Assembly: GCA_018902545.1 (NCBI GenBank)
Contig: JAHIQM010000016.1
Coordinates: 124,001 to 188,000 of the forward strand
Direction of reading: 5' to 3'
DNA: 64,000 nucleotides
Source of the DNA: Pseudomonadota bacterium
GTDB taxonomy: Bacteria > Desulfobacterota > Desulfovibrionia > Desulfovibrionales > Desulfomicrobiaceae
Part shown: positions 19,910-44,894 of the stretch, piece after piece
Numbering within the stretch: the stretch's first letter is position 1
How the letters are laid out: each line of letters opens with the position of its first letter
Position numbers and translations under genes: made by a program
Notes under the pieces: generated by a model
The model's input: only the letters and a program-made list of their open reading frames with translations
Told to the model about the DNA's origin: nothing
Databases searched by the model: none

Positions 19910-20782
19910 TTGCATTCCGTGATTCAACGCGTAGCTGCGATTCATGATCTTTCTGGGTTTGGAGGGGGGTCGCTCTCAGCAGTGATCCCCATTCTTTCGA
20001 CCATGGGCATACAGGTCTGCAGCCTGCCCACCGCTATCCTCTCCACGCACACGGGCGGCTTCGCCGATTTCCACTTCCGCGATCTGACCTCGGACATGCG
20101 CTCCATCATCACGCACTGGAGGCAACTCTCTTTGTCCTTTGCGGGCATCTATTCCGGATTTCTGGGTTCATCCGAGCAGATCGACATCGTCGATGATTTC
20201 ATCCGCACCTTTCGCACGGACTCTACATTGGTCGTTGTCGACCCAGTACTTGGTGACGACGGCAAGCTCTACGATACCATGGACAAATGCATGGTCGACG
20301 GCATGCGCAGCCTGGTGGCCTCCGCCGACGTGATCACCCCGAATATCACCGAGGCGTCGCTGCTGCTGGGCATGTCCGGCTCCACGTCAGTCTCCGGCAC
20401 GGCCGAGGTGAAGGATTGGGCGCGCCGCCTGGGCGAGCTTGGTCCTGACTGCGTCATTATCACCAGCGTGCCCGAGGGACATGGCCGAGGAACCTCGGTG
20501 GTCGCCTTCGACAAGAAAGTAAACCGCTTCTGGAAGGTGGCATGCCCTTATATTCCTGCGTGTTACCCCGGCACTGGCGATATTTTCGCCAGCGTGATAA
20601 CAGGGTGTTTGCTTCAGGGTGACTCCCTGCCCCTTTCGCTGGACCGGGCCGTGCAGTTCGTGTCCATGGCCATCCGGGCGACATTCGGCCACAATTTTCC
20701 GGAACGCGAAGGGGTTTTTCTGGAACGAGTGCTTCCGAGTCTGAATGCGCCCGTGTCCATGAGCAGCTTTGAACTGATATGA
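19910..20782 (+). CDS. Pyridoxal/pyridoxamine kinase (PdxY/PdxK-like)
   Basis: A 290-residue ribokinase-fold enzyme expected to phosphorylate B6 vitamers. It has the N-terminal DLSGFGGGSLSAVIPIL segment, DPVLGDDGKLY, TPNITEASLLLG and the ATP/catalytic motif YPGTGDIFASV. A TTG at 19910 is used as start because a GGAG site lies 8 nt before it and no in-frame ATG is near. It is the first gene of an overlapping operon that leads into a HAD phosphatase and the Mla genes; its stop overlaps the next ATG by 4 nt. Confidence 0.85.
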   Translation: MHSVIQRVAAIHDLSGFGGGSLSAVIPILSTMGIQVCSLPTAILSTHTGGFADFHFRDLTSDMRSIITHWRQLSLSFAGIYSGFLGSSEQIDIVDDFIRTFRTDSTLVVVDPVLGDDGKLYDTMDKCMVDGMRSLVASADVITPNITEASLLLGMSGSTSVSGTAEVKDWARRLGELGPDCVIITSVPEGHGRGTSVVAFDKKVNRFWKVACPYIPACYPGTGDIFASVITGCLLQGDSLPLSLDRAVQFVSMAIRATFGHNFPEREGVFLERVLPSLNAPVSMSSFELI

Positions 20783-21627
20783 ACGCCGCATATCGTGGAA
20801 TTTTTGTCAGCGATCTGGATGGCACCCTGCTCCGAAACGGCAGGATTTCCGAAGCAGACATCCGGGCCCTGCACGGACTTAAAGACCAGGGGATTTTGCG
20901 GGTCATCGCCACCGGCCGGTCGCTTTTTTCGGCGCGCTCTTGTCTTGCACAAGACTTCCCGGCCGATTACCTGATCCTTTCGACCGGCAGTCAGATCGTC
21001 ACCTGGCCTGCGCAAGAGGTGATACGCTCCGCTGGCATGTCAGGTCTTGAAGTGCGAGACATTTGCCTTTTTTTGCGAACCTTGGGCGTAAGCTTCATGG
21101 TGCATGAAAATTTTCCGCACAACCATCGCTTCGCCTACCACCGGGGGCGCATCAGTGTGGAGGATTTTGACCGACGAGTGGCCCTGTACGAAAGCCACAG
21201 CCTGGAAAAGTGGGATTGCACGAATGCCTCCGCGGCTTCCCAGATTGTGGTCATTGTTGACGGAAACGACGCGGCAATGCATGACCACATCGTCGGGACA
21301 CTTAAAGAGAACAGCGTAATCAGGGCCACGTCCCCTCTGGACGGACAGTCCGTGTGGATTGAAATTTTTGCGACGGATGTTTCCAAGGCATCGGGCATCA
21401 AGCATCTCGTCGACCATCACGGGCTGCACAAAGTTCTCAGCGCGGCCATTGGCAACGATCACAACGATCGGGACATGCTTGACCTTGTGCACATGCCTTT
21501 CAAGGTCGCTGACGCATTCCTGGACGGTGGAGACAGGTACATTACAACCCCGGAAAACTGCGACGCGGTGGCTTTTGCCATTGCGCAATACATGGAAACC
21601 ATCCAGTCCGGCATGAACAACGCATGA
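20779..21627 (+). CDS. HAD-superfamily Cof-type phosphatase
   Basis: A 282-residue HAD hydrolase with motif I SDLDGTLL (Asp12/Asp14), motif II ATGRS and motif IV GNDHNDRDML, and a large C2-type cap between them. Cof-type enzymes dephosphorylate sugar phosphates, flavin phosphates or pyridoxal phosphate. Directly coupled to a pyridoxal kinase gene (4-nt overlap), it could be a PLP phosphatase, but this is inference. Its 3' end overlaps mlaE by 4 nt. Confidence 0.85.
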   Translation: MNAAYRGIFVSDLDGTLLRNGRISEADIRALHGLKDQGILRVIATGRSLFSARSCLAQDFPADYLILSTGSQIVTWPAQEVIRSAGMSGLEVRDICLFLRTLGVSFMVHENFPHNHRFAYHRGRISVEDFDRRVALYESHSLEKWDCTNASAASQIVVIVDGNDAAMHDHIVGTLKENSVIRATSPLDGQSVWIEIFATDVSKASGIKHLVDHHGLHKVLSAAIGNDHNDRDMLDLVHMPFKVADAFLDGGDRYITTPENCDAVAFAIAQYMETIQSGMNNA

Positions 21628-22415
21628 AAAACATCTTGGCCTTCCCCGCAATGCTCGGGGCCTCATCGCTTGGGATCATCAGAAACGTGGGACAGTGGGG
21701 AGTCTTCTCCCTGACCGCGCTCCTCGGCATGGTCCACATCCGCAGGCTGATACCGAAAATCCTCTACAATATATACTTCATTGGCTTCAAATCCTTGAAC
21801 ATCATCGTGCTGGTGGCGTTCTTCACGGGTATGGTTCTGGGTCTGCAGGGGTACTACACGTTGATCAAGTTCAGTGCGGAGGGAATGCTCGGCGTGGCCG
21901 TGGCCTTGTCCCTGGTGCGCGAGCTCGGGCCCGTGCTTACCGCCATCATGCTCATCGGCCGGGCCGGGTCGAGCATCAGCGCGGAGATCGGCATCATGCG
22001 CATCTCGGAGCAGATCGACGCCCTCTCGACCATGGACGTGGACCCGGTGCGCTACCTGGTCACGCCCAAGGTCATCGCGGCGCTGATCTGCTTTCCGCTG
22101 CTGACCGCGATCTTCAATTGCGTCGGCATCCTGGGCGGATATTTTTCCTCTGTGCTCCTAAGTTCGCGTTCGGGCATATATTTCAGCAAGATCCAGTCGA
22201 GCCTCTTATTATCCGACGTGACCGGCGGCTTCGTCAAATCCTATGTCTTCGCCTTCATCGTGATCACCATTTCCTGCTACTGCGGGTATTATACGCACCA
22301 GAACCAGTCCAGCGCAGGCGCCGAAGGCGTCAGCAACTCTACGACATCCGCCGTTGTCCAGTCGTGCGTCTACGTACTGATTTCGGACTACGTCATAACG
22401 TCCTTCTTGATGTAG
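21624..22415 (+). CDS. mlaE: MlaE-family lipid ABC transporter permease
   Basis: A 263-residue inner-membrane permease of the Mla/MCE retrograde phospholipid transport system. It has the family pattern FFTGMVLGLQGY, then LVRELGPVLTAIMLIGRAGSSISAEIG and EQIDALSTMDVDPVRYLV, with about five membrane segments. It forms the membrane core for the ATPase, MCE and MlaC proteins encoded next. All five Mla components follow in one operon. Confidence 0.92.
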   Translation: MKNILAFPAMLGASSLGIIRNVGQWGVFSLTALLGMVHIRRLIPKILYNIYFIGFKSLNIIVLVAFFTGMVLGLQGYYTLIKFSAEGMLGVAVALSLVRELGPVLTAIMLIGRAGSSISAEIGIMRISEQIDALSTMDVDPVRYLVTPKVIAALICFPLLTAIFNCVGILGGYFSSVLLSSRSGIYFSKIQSSLLLSDVTGGFVKSYVFAFIVITISCYCGYYTHQNQSSAGAEGVSNSTTSAVVQSCVYVLISDYVITSFLM

Positions 22416-22419
22416 GCAC

Positions 22420-23607
22420 ATGAGCAGCGCAACACCACTCATCCAGCTTCGTAATATTTCCAAGGCCTTCAGCGGAAGGGAAATTCTGCGTGGCGCGACT
22501 CTCGACATCAACCGCAACGAGATCACCGCCATCATCGGGAAAAGCGGCGGCGGCAAAAGCGTGCTGGTCAAGCACATCATCGGGTTGATCACGGCGGACA
22601 GCGGGGAGATCATCTTCGACGGCATCCCCTACTCGACCATGACGCGAAAGGATTTTTCAGCCATCAAGAGTCGCTGCAGCTACATGTTCCAGAACAACGC
22701 CCTGTTCGATTCCATGACCGTGTTCGAGAACATCGCCCTGCCCCTGCGGGAGAAGTTCCAGCTTTCGGACAAGGAAATAGAGGAAAAAGTCCGCGCCCGC
22801 ATCGAACAGCTCGAACTGGGCGAGGTGGCCGGGATGTACCCGAAGCAGATTTCCGGCGGCATGCAGAAGCGGGTGGCCCTTGCGCGAGCCCTGGTCACGG
22901 AACCGGAAATCATCTTCTTCGACGAACCGACCACGGGGCTTGACCCCATTCGCAAGAAGACGGTCTTCTCCATGATCCACCGCTACCACGAAGCGCTCAA
23001 CTTCACCGCGGTGATCATTACCCATGATATACCGGACATCTTCTACATCGCCCACACCGTGAACATCCTGGACGAGGGGCGGATCATTTACTCCGGCTCG
23101 CCCGTATCCCTGGAGCAATCTTCGGATCCAGGCCTGTACAGCTACACCCACGGCCACGAAATGCTCCTCGACGAACTGACCGGCCTACACAACCGGCTCG
23201 CGCTTATGCGCAAGATCGAAGCCTTCGGTGCGCAGGACAGCGACCAACTCGTCCTGGCCACGGTCAGGCTCGTGGGAATGAGAACTATCATGGACTACAA
23301 AGGCGAACTCCTGGCCCACGCCTTCATCAGCAAACTGGCCAAGTTCGTGCGCTCGTTCCTGCCGCAGGGAGCGTGCGCGGGCATGTTTTCCAAGGAAATC
23401 CTGGTTCTGGCGGCAGGGTCCGGAGACGACTCAACCCTGGAGATGTTTCTAAGACAGCTCGCCGGATATTTTCAGAACCTGGCCATCGAAACGTATTGCC
23501 ATAAACAAAGACTTCAGGTCGAAATCGGCGGCGCGCTGATCACCAAGGGCGCGAGCGCCTATTCGGCCATTCAGGAAGCACTTGCAACATCCAAGAAGTA
23601 CGTATGA
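22420..23607 (+). CDS. mlaF: MlaF-type ATPase with C-terminal degenerate GGDEF-like extension
   Basis: A 395-residue protein, about 130 longer than a typical MlaF. Residues 1-245 are a complete ATPase: Walker A IGKSGGGKSV (39-48), signature ISGGMQKRVALARAL and FFDEPTTGLDP. From residue 250, DELTGLHNRLALMRKIE matches the opening of GGDEF domains; FSKEILVLAAG lies where the GGDEF loop and next strand should be, and VEIGGALI and a final AIQEALATSKKYV fit the last strand and helix. The catalytic GGDEF loop is lost (GMFSKEI), so cyclase activity is not expected, but nucleotide or c-di-GMP sensing is possible. The ATPase part would drive phospholipid transport. Confidence 0.88.
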   Translation: MSSATPLIQLRNISKAFSGREILRGATLDINRNEITAIIGKSGGGKSVLVKHIIGLITADSGEIIFDGIPYSTMTRKDFSAIKSRCSYMFQNNALFDSMTVFENIALPLREKFQLSDKEIEEKVRARIEQLELGEVAGMYPKQISGGMQKRVALARALVTEPEIIFFDEPTTGLDPIRKKTVFSMIHRYHEALNFTAVIITHDIPDIFYIAHTVNILDEGRIIYSGSPVSLEQSSDPGLYSYTHGHEMLLDELTGLHNRLALMRKIEAFGAQDSDQLVLATVRLVGMRTIMDYKGELLAHAFISKLAKFVRSFLPQGACAGMFSKEILVLAAGSGDDSTLEMFLRQLAGYFQNLAIETYCHKQRLQVEIGGALITKGASAYSAIQEALATSKKYV

Positions 23608-24062
23608 AGACCAACAATTCCTCCATGCATCTCTCCATCGGCCTCTTTATCATCGTCGGTTTGGCCTGCACCGCCTATCTGGCCATGACTCTGGCCAACA
23701 CGACCTTTTTTTCAGGCGATTCCTACATGGTCACCGCCAAGTTCACGGCCGTGAACGGACTCAGGACAGGCAGCAGCGTCGAGATCTCGGGCGTCACGGT
23801 GGGCAAGGTTTCAAACATCATCCTGGACCAGACCCTTTACCAGGCCGTGATCACCATGGACATTCAGAATTCCGTCGGCATCCCCGTGGATTCCACGGCG
23901 GCAATCAAGACCAGCGGGCTCATTGGTGACAAGTACATAAGTATCATACCCGGAGCCGACGATGTGCTCCTCAAAGACAAAGAAGTCCTGATGGATACGC
24001 AGGCGGCCCTCGATATCGAGGAAATGATTTCAAAGTATGTCTTCGGAAGTGTGGAGAAATGA
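23604..24062 (+). CDS. mlaD: MlaD-family MCE-domain protein
   Basis: A 152-residue protein with one N-terminal membrane anchor (about 10-32) and one MCE domain (about 40-117) containing FTAVNGLRTGSSVEISGVTVGKV and TSGLIGDKYISIIPG. MlaD hexamers form the periplasmic ring that receives lipid. The 4-nt overlaps with mlaF and mlaC point to tight coupling. Confidence 0.93.
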   Translation: MKTNNSSMHLSIGLFIIVGLACTAYLAMTLANTTFFSGDSYMVTAKFTAVNGLRTGSSVEISGVTVGKVSNIILDQTLYQAVITMDIQNSVGIPVDSTAAIKTSGLIGDKYISIIPGADDVLLKDKEVLMDTQAALDIEEMISKYVFGSVEK

Positions 24063-24640
24063 AAATTCTGCTTTTTATTCTTGTTTTGCTCCTGCCGGCG
24101 CCAGCCTTGTCGCAAGGCAACCCCACCAGCTACATCCGCGCCAATGTGGATGCCGTGGTGGCCATTCTGACCGATCCGGAATTAGCCGGGGAAGAAAACA
24201 GGGGCGAGCAATTGCGCCGCATCGAGGCCATGGTCGACAATTTCTTCGACGCCGAGGAACTTTCCAAGCGCGCCCTGGGGCAGTACTGGAAAATCTTCAC
24301 CGAAGAGCAGAAGCAGGAATTCCAGCCCCTGTTTTTGAAGCTCATCAAGCAGGTCTACCTCAAGAAATCCATCAACTACAACGACGAAGTGGTGCATTAC
24401 AACCAGGAGATCATAAAATCCGATACCCTGGCCGAAGTGTATACGACAGTGACTTCGCCCACCCTGAACGTTCCGATCATCTACTCCATGATCAGAAAGG
24501 ACGTCTCGTGGAAGGTTTACGACGTGTCCGTGGAAAACGTGAGCCTGGTCAAAAACTACCGCTCCCAGTTCCGCAGCATCCTGCAAAACAATTCACCCGA
24601 TCATCTCATCGCGACCCTGAGGGATAAAACCAATGAGTAA
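24059..24640 (+). CDS. mlaC: MlaC-family periplasmic phospholipid-binding protein
   Basis: A 193-residue secreted protein with a signal peptide (about 1-19, ending PAPALS). The sequence has the MlaC/Ttg2D layout: VDNFFDAEELSKRALGQYW, then FQPLFLKLIKQVYLKKSINY and a late strand VYDVSVENVSLVKNYRSQFR. It would shuttle phospholipid between the MlaD ring and the outer-membrane MlaA lipoprotein encoded next. Confidence 0.9.
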   Translation: MKILLFILVLLLPAPALSQGNPTSYIRANVDAVVAILTDPELAGEENRGEQLRRIEAMVDNFFDAEELSKRALGQYWKIFTEEQKQEFQPLFLKLIKQVYLKKSINYNDEVVHYNQEIIKSDTLAEVYTTVTSPTLNVPIIYSMIRKDVSWKVYDVSVENVSLVKNYRSQFRSILQNNSPDHLIATLRDKTNE

Positions 24641-25376
24641 GCGTCTTCTTCTGCTCTGCCTGGCCCTGGGCGTAATTCTGCTGCAGGGCTGCGCCACCGG
24701 CAAATCCGCTTCGGCCCCCACGGACATGGCGGCGGATCAGGAATATGAAGAATCCTACGACGATCAAAACGGGGCCTACCCCGACTCCATCGAGGGCTTC
24801 AACCGGGGCGTGTTTTCGTTCAACGACGGTTTCATCACCTACGTTTTTTCGCCCATCGATACGGTCTACACCGGATTTTTTCCTCCGGACGTCCGCGCCG
24901 GGTTTGGTAATTTCTACCGCAACCTTGGCTATCCGGTGCGTCTCATAAACGCCTTGCTGCAGTTCAAGTTCGACAAAGTGGGCAAGGAAACCGCTTCCTT
25001 TGCCCTGAACACGGTCTTTGGCGTGGGCGGCCTCTTCAACATCACGCACAACATGCCAAGCCTGCACTCCTCGCCTGAAGACTTCAGCCAGACCCTGGCC
25101 TTCTATGGCCTCGGATCAGGCACCTATCTGGTGTTGCCCATCATCGGCCCCAGCACCCTGCGCGACGCCGTGGCCTCCGTGGCAGACTCCATGGTCCACC
25201 CCCTCTCCTTCGTGACCCCGGACAGCGCCAAATACGCCCTGATCGGACACGACAGGGGCAACACGGCCTCGGCAAACCTGCCAGCCTACAAGAGCATCAA
25301 GGAAGAATCCTTCGATCACTATACGAGCATGAAGGACATCTACTTCCAGTACAGAATCGGGCTGGAGCAGGAATAG
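24633..25376 (+). CDS. mlaA: MlaA (VacJ)-family outer-membrane lipoprotein
   Basis: A 247-residue lipoprotein with a lipobox LLQGC (cleavage before Cys21). The MlaA core is present: IEGFNRGVFSFNDGF, then FYRNLGYPVRLINALLQ, FGVGGLFNI and GLGSGTYLVLPIIGPSTLRD. It would remove mislocalised phospholipid from the outer leaflet. It overlaps mlaC by 8 nt and ends the operon. Confidence 0.93.
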   Translation: MSKRLLLLCLALGVILLQGCATGKSASAPTDMAADQEYEESYDDQNGAYPDSIEGFNRGVFSFNDGFITYVFSPIDTVYTGFFPPDVRAGFGNFYRNLGYPVRLINALLQFKFDKVGKETASFALNTVFGVGGLFNITHNMPSLHSSPEDFSQTLAFYGLGSGTYLVLPIIGPSTLRDAVASVADSMVHPLSFVTPDSAKYALIGHDRGNTASANLPAYKSIKEESFDHYTSMKDIYFQYRIGLEQE

Positions 25377-43445: not shown

Positions 43446-44894
43446 ATGGACACCCCGACCCGCCCCTGCCTGGGTCTAGCACTGAGCGCCGAACTCGCCG
43501 CCCAGCTTGAGGTTCATCTGCCCCGAGGAAGGATTTTCGAGAACCGTTCCTTCGCGTCGGCACGGGAATTCATGCGTGAACAAACGCAAGGTGGGCTTGT
43601 ATTCGTAGCCACTTCCTCATGGGAGAAGCTTACCCCGGATGACCGGGAGAGCTTGACCGCACATCGATCCTGGCAGTTCCTGCTCATCGCCGACCAACAT
43701 GACGCACGAGCCATGGAATATGTAGCTTCGGGCGTGTTTCTCACCCTCGCGACCTGTCCGCTGGACGGGGCAAAAATTGCCCGCGCGTTGGGACAGGCGG
43801 AAGAAGTGTCCAGCATGTATGACGACATCTTCCTCATGGCACGCGAAATCAGCCTCGAACGGGAGCTTCTGGCCCGCAAGAACGAACAACTCGCCTTTCT
43901 CAACCAGCTCCTGACCAGGGCCAGTCAAACCCTTGACCCGGCGGTCATCCTTGCCAATTGCGCCGAAGACTTCGCCATGCTGCTTGAGGTCGGGACCGTG
44001 CTCGGCGTCTTCTGGGCCGAAAATGAAGGTCAGACCGAGGCGGAGCTGTTCTTGCCCGGCGCCTTGCCGCATGCCCATCAGGCGGAATGGATCAATCACC
44101 TCCTGAGTGTCGCGGCCCGTCTGGGCAAACATGAGGTGCTCGGGTATCAGGTGTCGGTGCTGGAACTTAAAGACTGCAAACCGGGCACTCCGGAACTTGA
44201 ACAACTCATCACCCTGCCCCTGACCCTTGGCCCCGAGCCCTTCGGCGCTTTGGTCATCTGCTCACAGGACGCCTCAAAACTCGGGCAGGACCGCTTGCGC
44301 ATCCTCAGTTCCGCGGCCAACCACCTGGCCCTGGCCATGCGCAACGGCCTGGAATTCCGCAAGACCAAGGCCAGGGCGGACCATGATGGCCTGACGCGCA
44401 TCTCCAATCGTCACCATTTTGACGTACGTTTGCGTGAAGAGATGAAGCGCCACCAGCGCCACCAGGACGAAGTGAGCCTGATGATGCTCGATCTGGACTA
44501 TTTCAAGTCCATCAACGACACCTACGGCCACCAGGCCGGGGACATGGTGCTGCGCGAAGTGGGCAAGATTCTGAATAATACGCTGCGGGAATCGGACTTC
44601 CCCGCTCGCTACGGCGGAGAGGAGTTCGTCGTCATCCTGCCGCAGACCAGGGAGGATCAAGCCTGGATTCTGGCTGAACGCCTGCGTTCCCTGATCGGCC
44701 AGACCGTGTTCCGGTTCCAGAAGAAACGCTTCCGGGTCACGGCTTCCATCGGCATCGCCGGCATCAAGCCCTGCGCGCTGACCCCGCCGGAGACCCTGCT
44801 TCGCAATGCGGACCTGGCCCTCTATCAGGCCAAAACCAACGGGCGCAACATGGTCTGCTGCTCGGCCATCGAGGATACCCAGGCGGCCCATTGA
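43446..44894 (+). CDS. Diguanylate cyclase with N-terminal receiver-like and GAF-like regions
   Basis: A 482-residue soluble protein. The C-terminal GGDEF domain is intact: DHDGLTRISNRHHFD, MMLDLDYFKSINDTYGHQAGD and the active site YGGEEFVVILP. The upstream RESD fits the I-site R-x2-D, so c-di-GMP feedback inhibition is likely. Residues 1-125 look like a degenerate receiver (LTAHRSWQFLLIADQHD), followed by a coiled coil and a GAF-like region (about 155-300). The gene stands alone behind a possible sigma-54 promoter, with a terminator after it. Confidence 0.9.
   Translation: MDTPTRPCLGLALSAELAAQLEVHLPRGRIFENRSFASAREFMREQTQGGLVFVATSSWEKLTPDDRESLTAHRSWQFLLIADQHDARAMEYVASGVFLTLATCPLDGAKIARALGQAEEVSSMYDDIFLMAREISLERELLARKNEQLAFLNQLLTRASQTLDPAVILANCAEDFAMLLEVGTVLGVFWAENEGQTEAELFLPGALPHAHQAEWINHLLSVAARLGKHEVLGYQVSVLELKDCKPGTPELEQLITLPLTLGPEPFGALVICSQDASKLGQDRLRILSSAANHLALAMRNGLEFRKTKARADHDGLTRISNRHHFDVRLREEMKRHQRHQDEVSLMMLDLDYFKSINDTYGHQAGDMVLREVGKILNNTLRESDFPARYGGEEFVVILPQTREDQAWILAERLRSLIGQTVFRFQKKRFRVTASIGIAGIKPCALTPPETLLRNADLALYQAKTNGRNMVCCSAIEDTQAAH

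Follow-up and report, generated by a model that had tools for sequence, protein, structure and literature searches.

The Mla system keeps the outer membrane asymmetric. In E. coli, the ATPase of this system, MlaF, carries a 25-residue C-terminal extension that wraps around the other MlaF subunit and docks at the MlaF-MlaB interface (PMC7367683). Removal of this extension abolishes function, artificial dimerisation of the truncated MlaF largely rescues it, and MlaF stays on the MlaE complex only when MlaB is present (PMC7367683). MlaB is sparsely distributed (PMC10665443); nearly all of the 'true Mla' systems surveyed possess it (PMC7790496), and Veillonella functions without it (PMC10665443). 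Among sulfate reducers, mutants of mla in Desulfovibrio alaskensis G20 are impaired in the presence of SDS and under phosphate limitation (PMC5193443). Even for E. coli it is not settled how the Mla ATPase is regulated, nor what controls MlaB (PMC7367683). A second set of described systems involves degenerate GGDEF domains, of which those of BcsE and PelD serve as c-di-GMP receptors; the RxxD motif is exactly the site that they retain (PMC7439463).

The window analyzed here, a 64-kb stretch of DNA, comes from a Desulfomicrobium-like genome, the nearest named relatives in the search being Desulfomicrobium. It contains a tightly packed operon, mlaE-mlaF-mlaD-mlaC-mlaA (21624-25376; Table 1), with each gene assigned by its Pfam family, and MlaF is thereby encoded in the company of MlaE, MlaD, MlaC and MlaA by which a Mla ATPase is recognized. 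Genes for a pyridoxal-kinase-like protein and a HAD-type hydrolase (19910-21627) may be co-transcribed with the operon, since they show four-base overlaps with each other and with mlaE.

Table 1. Features of the mla operon and of the MlaF fusion protein (positions in the 64-kb window)
Feature	Position	Strand	Evidence
mlaE permease, without STAS extension	21624..22415	+	PF02405 E=1.5e-76
mlaF, ABC ATPase plus C-terminal GGDEF-derived domain, 395 aa	22420..23607	+	ORF, Pfam, solved-structure matches
MlaF nucleotide-binding domain (NBD), residues 1-245	22420..23154	+	PF00005 E=7e-32, alignment, solved MlaF chains
Predicted helix joining NBD to GGDEF-derived domain, residues 237-254	23128..23181	+	model and conservation
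Degenerate GGDEF domain, residues 251-395 (~145 residues)	23170..23604	+	Pfam, profile searches, predicted fold
DELTGLHNR, retained GGDEF-domain opening, residues 251-259	23170..23196	+	translation, alignment
Position of RxxD inhibitory (c-di-GMP) site, P-Q-G-A here, site absent	23362..23373	+	alignment
Position of GGDEF signature, S-K-E-I-L here, catalytic motif absent	23389..23403	+	alignment
mlaD, short E. coli-type, 152 aa, overlapping the mlaF stop	23604..24062	+	PF02470
mlaC	24059..24640	+	PF05494
mlaA	24633..25376	+	PF04333

The N-terminal part of MlaF (residues 1-244/245) is, judged by its motifs, an intact Mla-type ABC ATPase domain. Walker A (GKSGGGKS), the signature (SGGMQKR), Walker B (IIFFDEP) and H202 are all in place and are invariant or nearly so in an alignment of relatives; the methionine in SGGM is a Mla-type feature (PMC7367683). 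Among the solved structures that best match this domain are the MlaF proteins of A. baumannii and of E. coli, the latter at E=2e-49 (6xbd). Alignments to the solved MlaF chains end at residues 243-246, and no PDB match at the cut-off of that search extends beyond residue 246. Among NCBIfam models MlaF scores best, yet its 189 bits compare with an E. coli-level equivalog cut-off of 441 bits.

The remainder of the protein had been described in an earlier note, made from the sequence alone, as a degenerate GGDEF-like domain fused to MlaF, and several lines of evidence now agree on this description. Taken alone, the tail scores 24.8 bits (E=2e-5) against PF00990 (GGDEF), for which the curated cut-off is 23.8 bits, with nearly the whole profile covered. 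This score is marginal, and the homology of the tail was therefore tested by four further routes. PF00990 was matched by all 15 diverse family tails scanned (best E 1e-21). A family profile built from the 15 tails gave 53 matches among all PDB sequences (best E 5e-23), consisting of GGDEF proteins or of transporters bearing a GGDEF-like domain, such as an ammonium transporter. The profile-profile search that the note had called for (hhalign, against GGDEF domains from the same genome) returned a probability of 99.6% when the whole family was compared and of 97.6% with the window's own clade alone. The structure prediction that it had also proposed, an AlphaFold model of the tail (pLDDT 83.9, pTM 0.78), found only GGDEF domains among its best 50 Foldseek matches and among the best 50 re-scored entries, with Z scores of 14-16 over about 140-155 residues. 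By descent and predicted fold, then, the tail is a GGDEF domain.

The start of the domain differs slightly from that first proposed. DELTGLHNR is indeed a GGDEF-domain opening, but it starts at residue 251 and not at residue 250; the final coding base, 23604, is where it had been placed. In the model, the helix that links the two domains lies where the stalk helix of diguanylate cyclases does, with low pLDDT at residues 246-248. One residue of this helix, E247, is conserved in 78% of the family and is not conserved in active GGDEF domains. The full-length MlaF model has a pTM of 0.63 and a weak linker, so that the placement of the domains relative to each other is not fixed.

The residues needed for catalysis were compared in an alignment of 60 family tails with the active GGDEF domains of the window's own genome. 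The R-x-GGDEF position reads M322-F-S-K-E-I-L, bearing out the earlier reading that GMFSKEI stands in place of the GGDEF loop. In addition, the metal-binding Asp is replaced by R, the guanine-binding Asn by M and the guanine-binding Asp by H. The GG[DE]EF motif, the metal Asp and the guanine Asp are each found in none of the 60 family members, and the guanine-binding Asn position is N in only nine. What the family does conserve is a skeleton common to active domains, namely the LTGL hairpin, the G of the GH position, the R before the signature position and the G of the last strand. As far as its residues can tell, the tail is catalytically dead, and an active diguanylate cyclase can be ruled out because the catalytic signature and the metal and guanine residues are missing from the window's tail. 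Conserved cysteines occur at two sites in about half of the tails, ahead of the last strand in 31/60 and close to the C-terminus in 34/60, often together (as in L186, L191 and L196); the window's tail has neither.

The earlier note had suggested that nucleotide signalling could control lipid asymmetry directly through the transporter ATPase. In such a scheme the tail would bind c-di-GMP (or GTP or ppGpp) and thereby gate phospholipid transport. The predicted GGDEF fold fits this idea, as does the genome, in which about 30 GGDEF matches besides the MlaF tail make a rich c-di-GMP signalling network likely. One of these, a canonical GGDEF domain (174 bits), lies within the window itself (44376-44849, in a 522-residue open frame). 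BcsE and PelD, whose degenerate GGDEF domains are c-di-GMP receptors, provide a precedent (PMC7439463), and c-di-GMP can regulate export ATPases (PMC4591828). Six family members from other lineages also keep RxxD in the right place (L183, L185, L188, L189, L140 and L154); those of them that the NBD tree includes fall outside the window's sub-clade, and no member of the window's clade keeps the motif. Control by c-di-GMP or GTP is nevertheless not supported for the window's protein, where the GGDEF signature, the metal Asp, the guanine Asn and Asp and RxxD are all missing. RxxD is likewise missing from 54 of the 60 relatives, and direct c-di-GMP control is disfavoured because the very site retained in BcsE and PelD has been lost here. 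We therefore regard a nucleotide receptor as unlikely. A version in which the tail is a ligand- or second-messenger-gated switch that uses a non-canonical site here and RxxD in some other lineages to couple nucleotide signalling to outer-membrane lipid asymmetry is unlikely as well.

The fusion is widespread. Counting only matches that run into the tail, it occurs in 50 of the 395 Desulfobacterota genomes sampled, from about 19 families, and in all 15 of the same-genus genomes searched. Within the Desulfovibrionales, where conservation had been named as a check, it was found in 36 of 150 sampled genomes. A sequencing or frame artefact is ruled out by the dozens of species in which the fusion reads through as one open frame. 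Among the best 80 loci listed, no tail was found in matches beyond the Desulfobacterota/Deltaproteobacteria. The tails of 40 fetched fusions are 149-175 residues long, tail-less MlaFs stop 6-27 residues past the NBD, and no intermediates are seen. One genome (G281, contig C15, 507-1685 and 4902-5972; L182) has two tailed MlaF genes about 4 kb apart.

In a tree built from the NBD only, all 45 tailed proteins fall inside one clade of 55 (support 100/99), and the ten tail-less members of that clade comprise two single rows and one sub-clade. The simplest history that explains this distribution is one fusion followed by about three losses. According to sequence, predicted fold and phylogeny, a GGDEF domain was joined to MlaF a single time, at an early stage of the Desulfobacterota lineage with mlaE-F-D-C-A operons, and kept its fold while catalysis and the c-di-GMP site were lost. 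The losses, together with the disappearance of catalytic and ligand residues and a tail sequence that diverges faster than the ATPase, could also mean that the tail is a passive relic of little function, tolerated since it is well folded. Yet the tail has persisted over a long span of evolution, with its frame open in about 20 families, and purifying selection acts on it where examined, among the window's congeners (dN/dS 0.17-0.33, as against 0.06-0.20 for the ABC part). A mere relic is thus improbable.

The gene neighborhoods place the tailed proteins among Mla systems. Of the 40 fetched fusions, 38 adjoin mlaE and a short mlaD, and most adjoin mlaC and mlaA as well; a short MlaD is nearby in 39 and a long MlaD in none. 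Forty tail-less MlaFs, by comparison, are split among loci with a short MlaD, with a long MlaD (350-590 aa) or with none found. This assigns the tailed clade to Mla systems of the E. coli-like mlaE-F-D-C-A type. An exception to the usual context is a solitary tailed MlaF (L200:3704-4945, minus strand) whose neighbors encode PilN-like and secretin proteins; the stretch examined around it yielded no other mla gene.

No E. coli-type MlaB gene was found among the neighbors of the window's operon, nor was a STAS (MlaB-like) gene found among the small neighbors of the other mlaF loci examined, tailed or tail-less; the MlaE proteins at tailed loci are too short to carry a STAS extension. The same genome encodes a second MCE transporter (L256:1372-4918, minus strand; G000 contig C18), with a STAS-MlaE fusion of 380 aa, a tail-less MlaF-like ATPase of 253 aa, an ABC_trans_aux lipoprotein and a MlaD of 337 aa. 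Both transporters of this genome thus have a single accessory domain, and neither combines the two kinds. Replacement of MlaB by the tail was rejected as a strict rule: tail-less Desulfobacterota MlaF operons likewise lack MlaB nearby, and these operons, together with the Veillonella system, argue that no stand-in for MlaB is strictly needed.

One family of Desulfovibrionales has an mlaE-D-C-A operon from which mlaF is missing (L277-L283; genomes G073, G060, G094, G079, G137, G050, G135 and G123), and the closest MlaF in that family is solitary, encoded elsewhere and tail-less (L207-L214). Loss of the tail and departure of mlaF from the operon seem to go together. A split-off tail was not found in the mla operons of these eight genomes of one family, a search in which seven loci showed mlaE-D-C-A and L284 showed only mlaE; the sole GGDEF match (L283) belongs to a 597-residue frame on the opposite strand.

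What, then, might a dead GGDEF domain do on MlaF? The tail probably serves as a handle, structural or regulatory, with no enzymatic role. It starts directly after the last NBD helix, at the same point in the chain as the handshake extension of E. coli MlaF, and may be its equivalent. This shared starting point is the reason for considering the tail a likely dimerisation and regulatory module. Our preferred reading, to which we give about an even chance, is that it is a non-enzymatic module of this kind, lying beneath the NBDs on the cytoplasmic face of the paired MlaF subunits. Two tails might pair with each other, or each might clasp the opposite subunit, and either arrangement could keep the dimeric ATPase attached to MlaE or tune how active it is. 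In this way the tail may do the work that the handshake and MlaB do together in E. coli. The roughly three tail losses and the unfixed domain placement in the full-length model count against this proposal.

The main rival is an adaptor, with no role in MlaF dimerisation, that recruits a GGDEF, PilZ or cell-envelope protein to position or regulate Mla. The degenerate GGDEF domain of BcsE contacts BcsQ with a distinct surface (PMC7439463), the GGDEF fold offers no explanation for the conserved, family-specific E247, and in one lineage the fusion stands alone beside pilus and secretin genes; all three observations would suit an adaptor. Set against them, no partner gene besides the mla genes recurs in the neighborhoods examined, and we consider docking possible but rather less than likely.

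The earlier note knew of no described case of such a protein, and a search of the open-licence full-text literature likewise found no description of a MlaF-GGDEF fusion, which is weak evidence of novelty. Both domains are well known, while their combination, its spread and its link to Mla operons without MlaB appear to be undescribed. An MlaF that, throughout a lineage, carries its own GGDEF-derived domain and has no MlaB gene near it amounts to a natural experiment on ATPase regulation. If the preferred reading of the tail as a dimerisation and regulatory module is true, a lipid transporter has taken over a domain from a signalling enzyme for a role that involves no catalysis.

The closest known systems share parts of this arrangement. 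MlaF of E. coli and A. baumannii (6xbd, 6xgy, 7d06, 6z5u) has the same Mla NBD, the same signature Met and an operon with MlaE, MlaD and MlaC, but ends about 25 residues past the NBD in a handshake that contacts MlaB, whereas the window's MlaF has a GGDEF-derived domain of 145 residues and no MlaB gene near it. The STAS-MlaE fusion of the genome's second MCE system also adds an accessory cytoplasmic domain, but that domain is STAS on the permease and not GGDEF on the ATPase. Among ATPases of other envelope machines, FliI, HrcN and MshE have been proposed to be under second-messenger control. These belong to other ATPase families and are not known to carry a GGDEF domain. Diguanylate cyclases (WspR, PleD and SadC) have GGDEF domains (PF00990) that share the fold, the DxLTGL opening and detectable homology with the window's tail, which differs in lacking GG[DE]EF, the metal Asp, the guanine Asn/Asp and RxxD and in being joined to an ABC ATPase. 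An ammonium transporter (PDB 8qj3, 8qpf) likewise carries a GGDEF-like domain on a transporter polypeptide, in that case an Amt channel and not an ABC ATPase. BcsE and PelD are, like the tail, dead GGDEF modules of envelope export machines; both bind c-di-GMP and have RxxD preserved (PMC7439463), whereas the tail has no RxxD and lies inside the ATPase chain itself.
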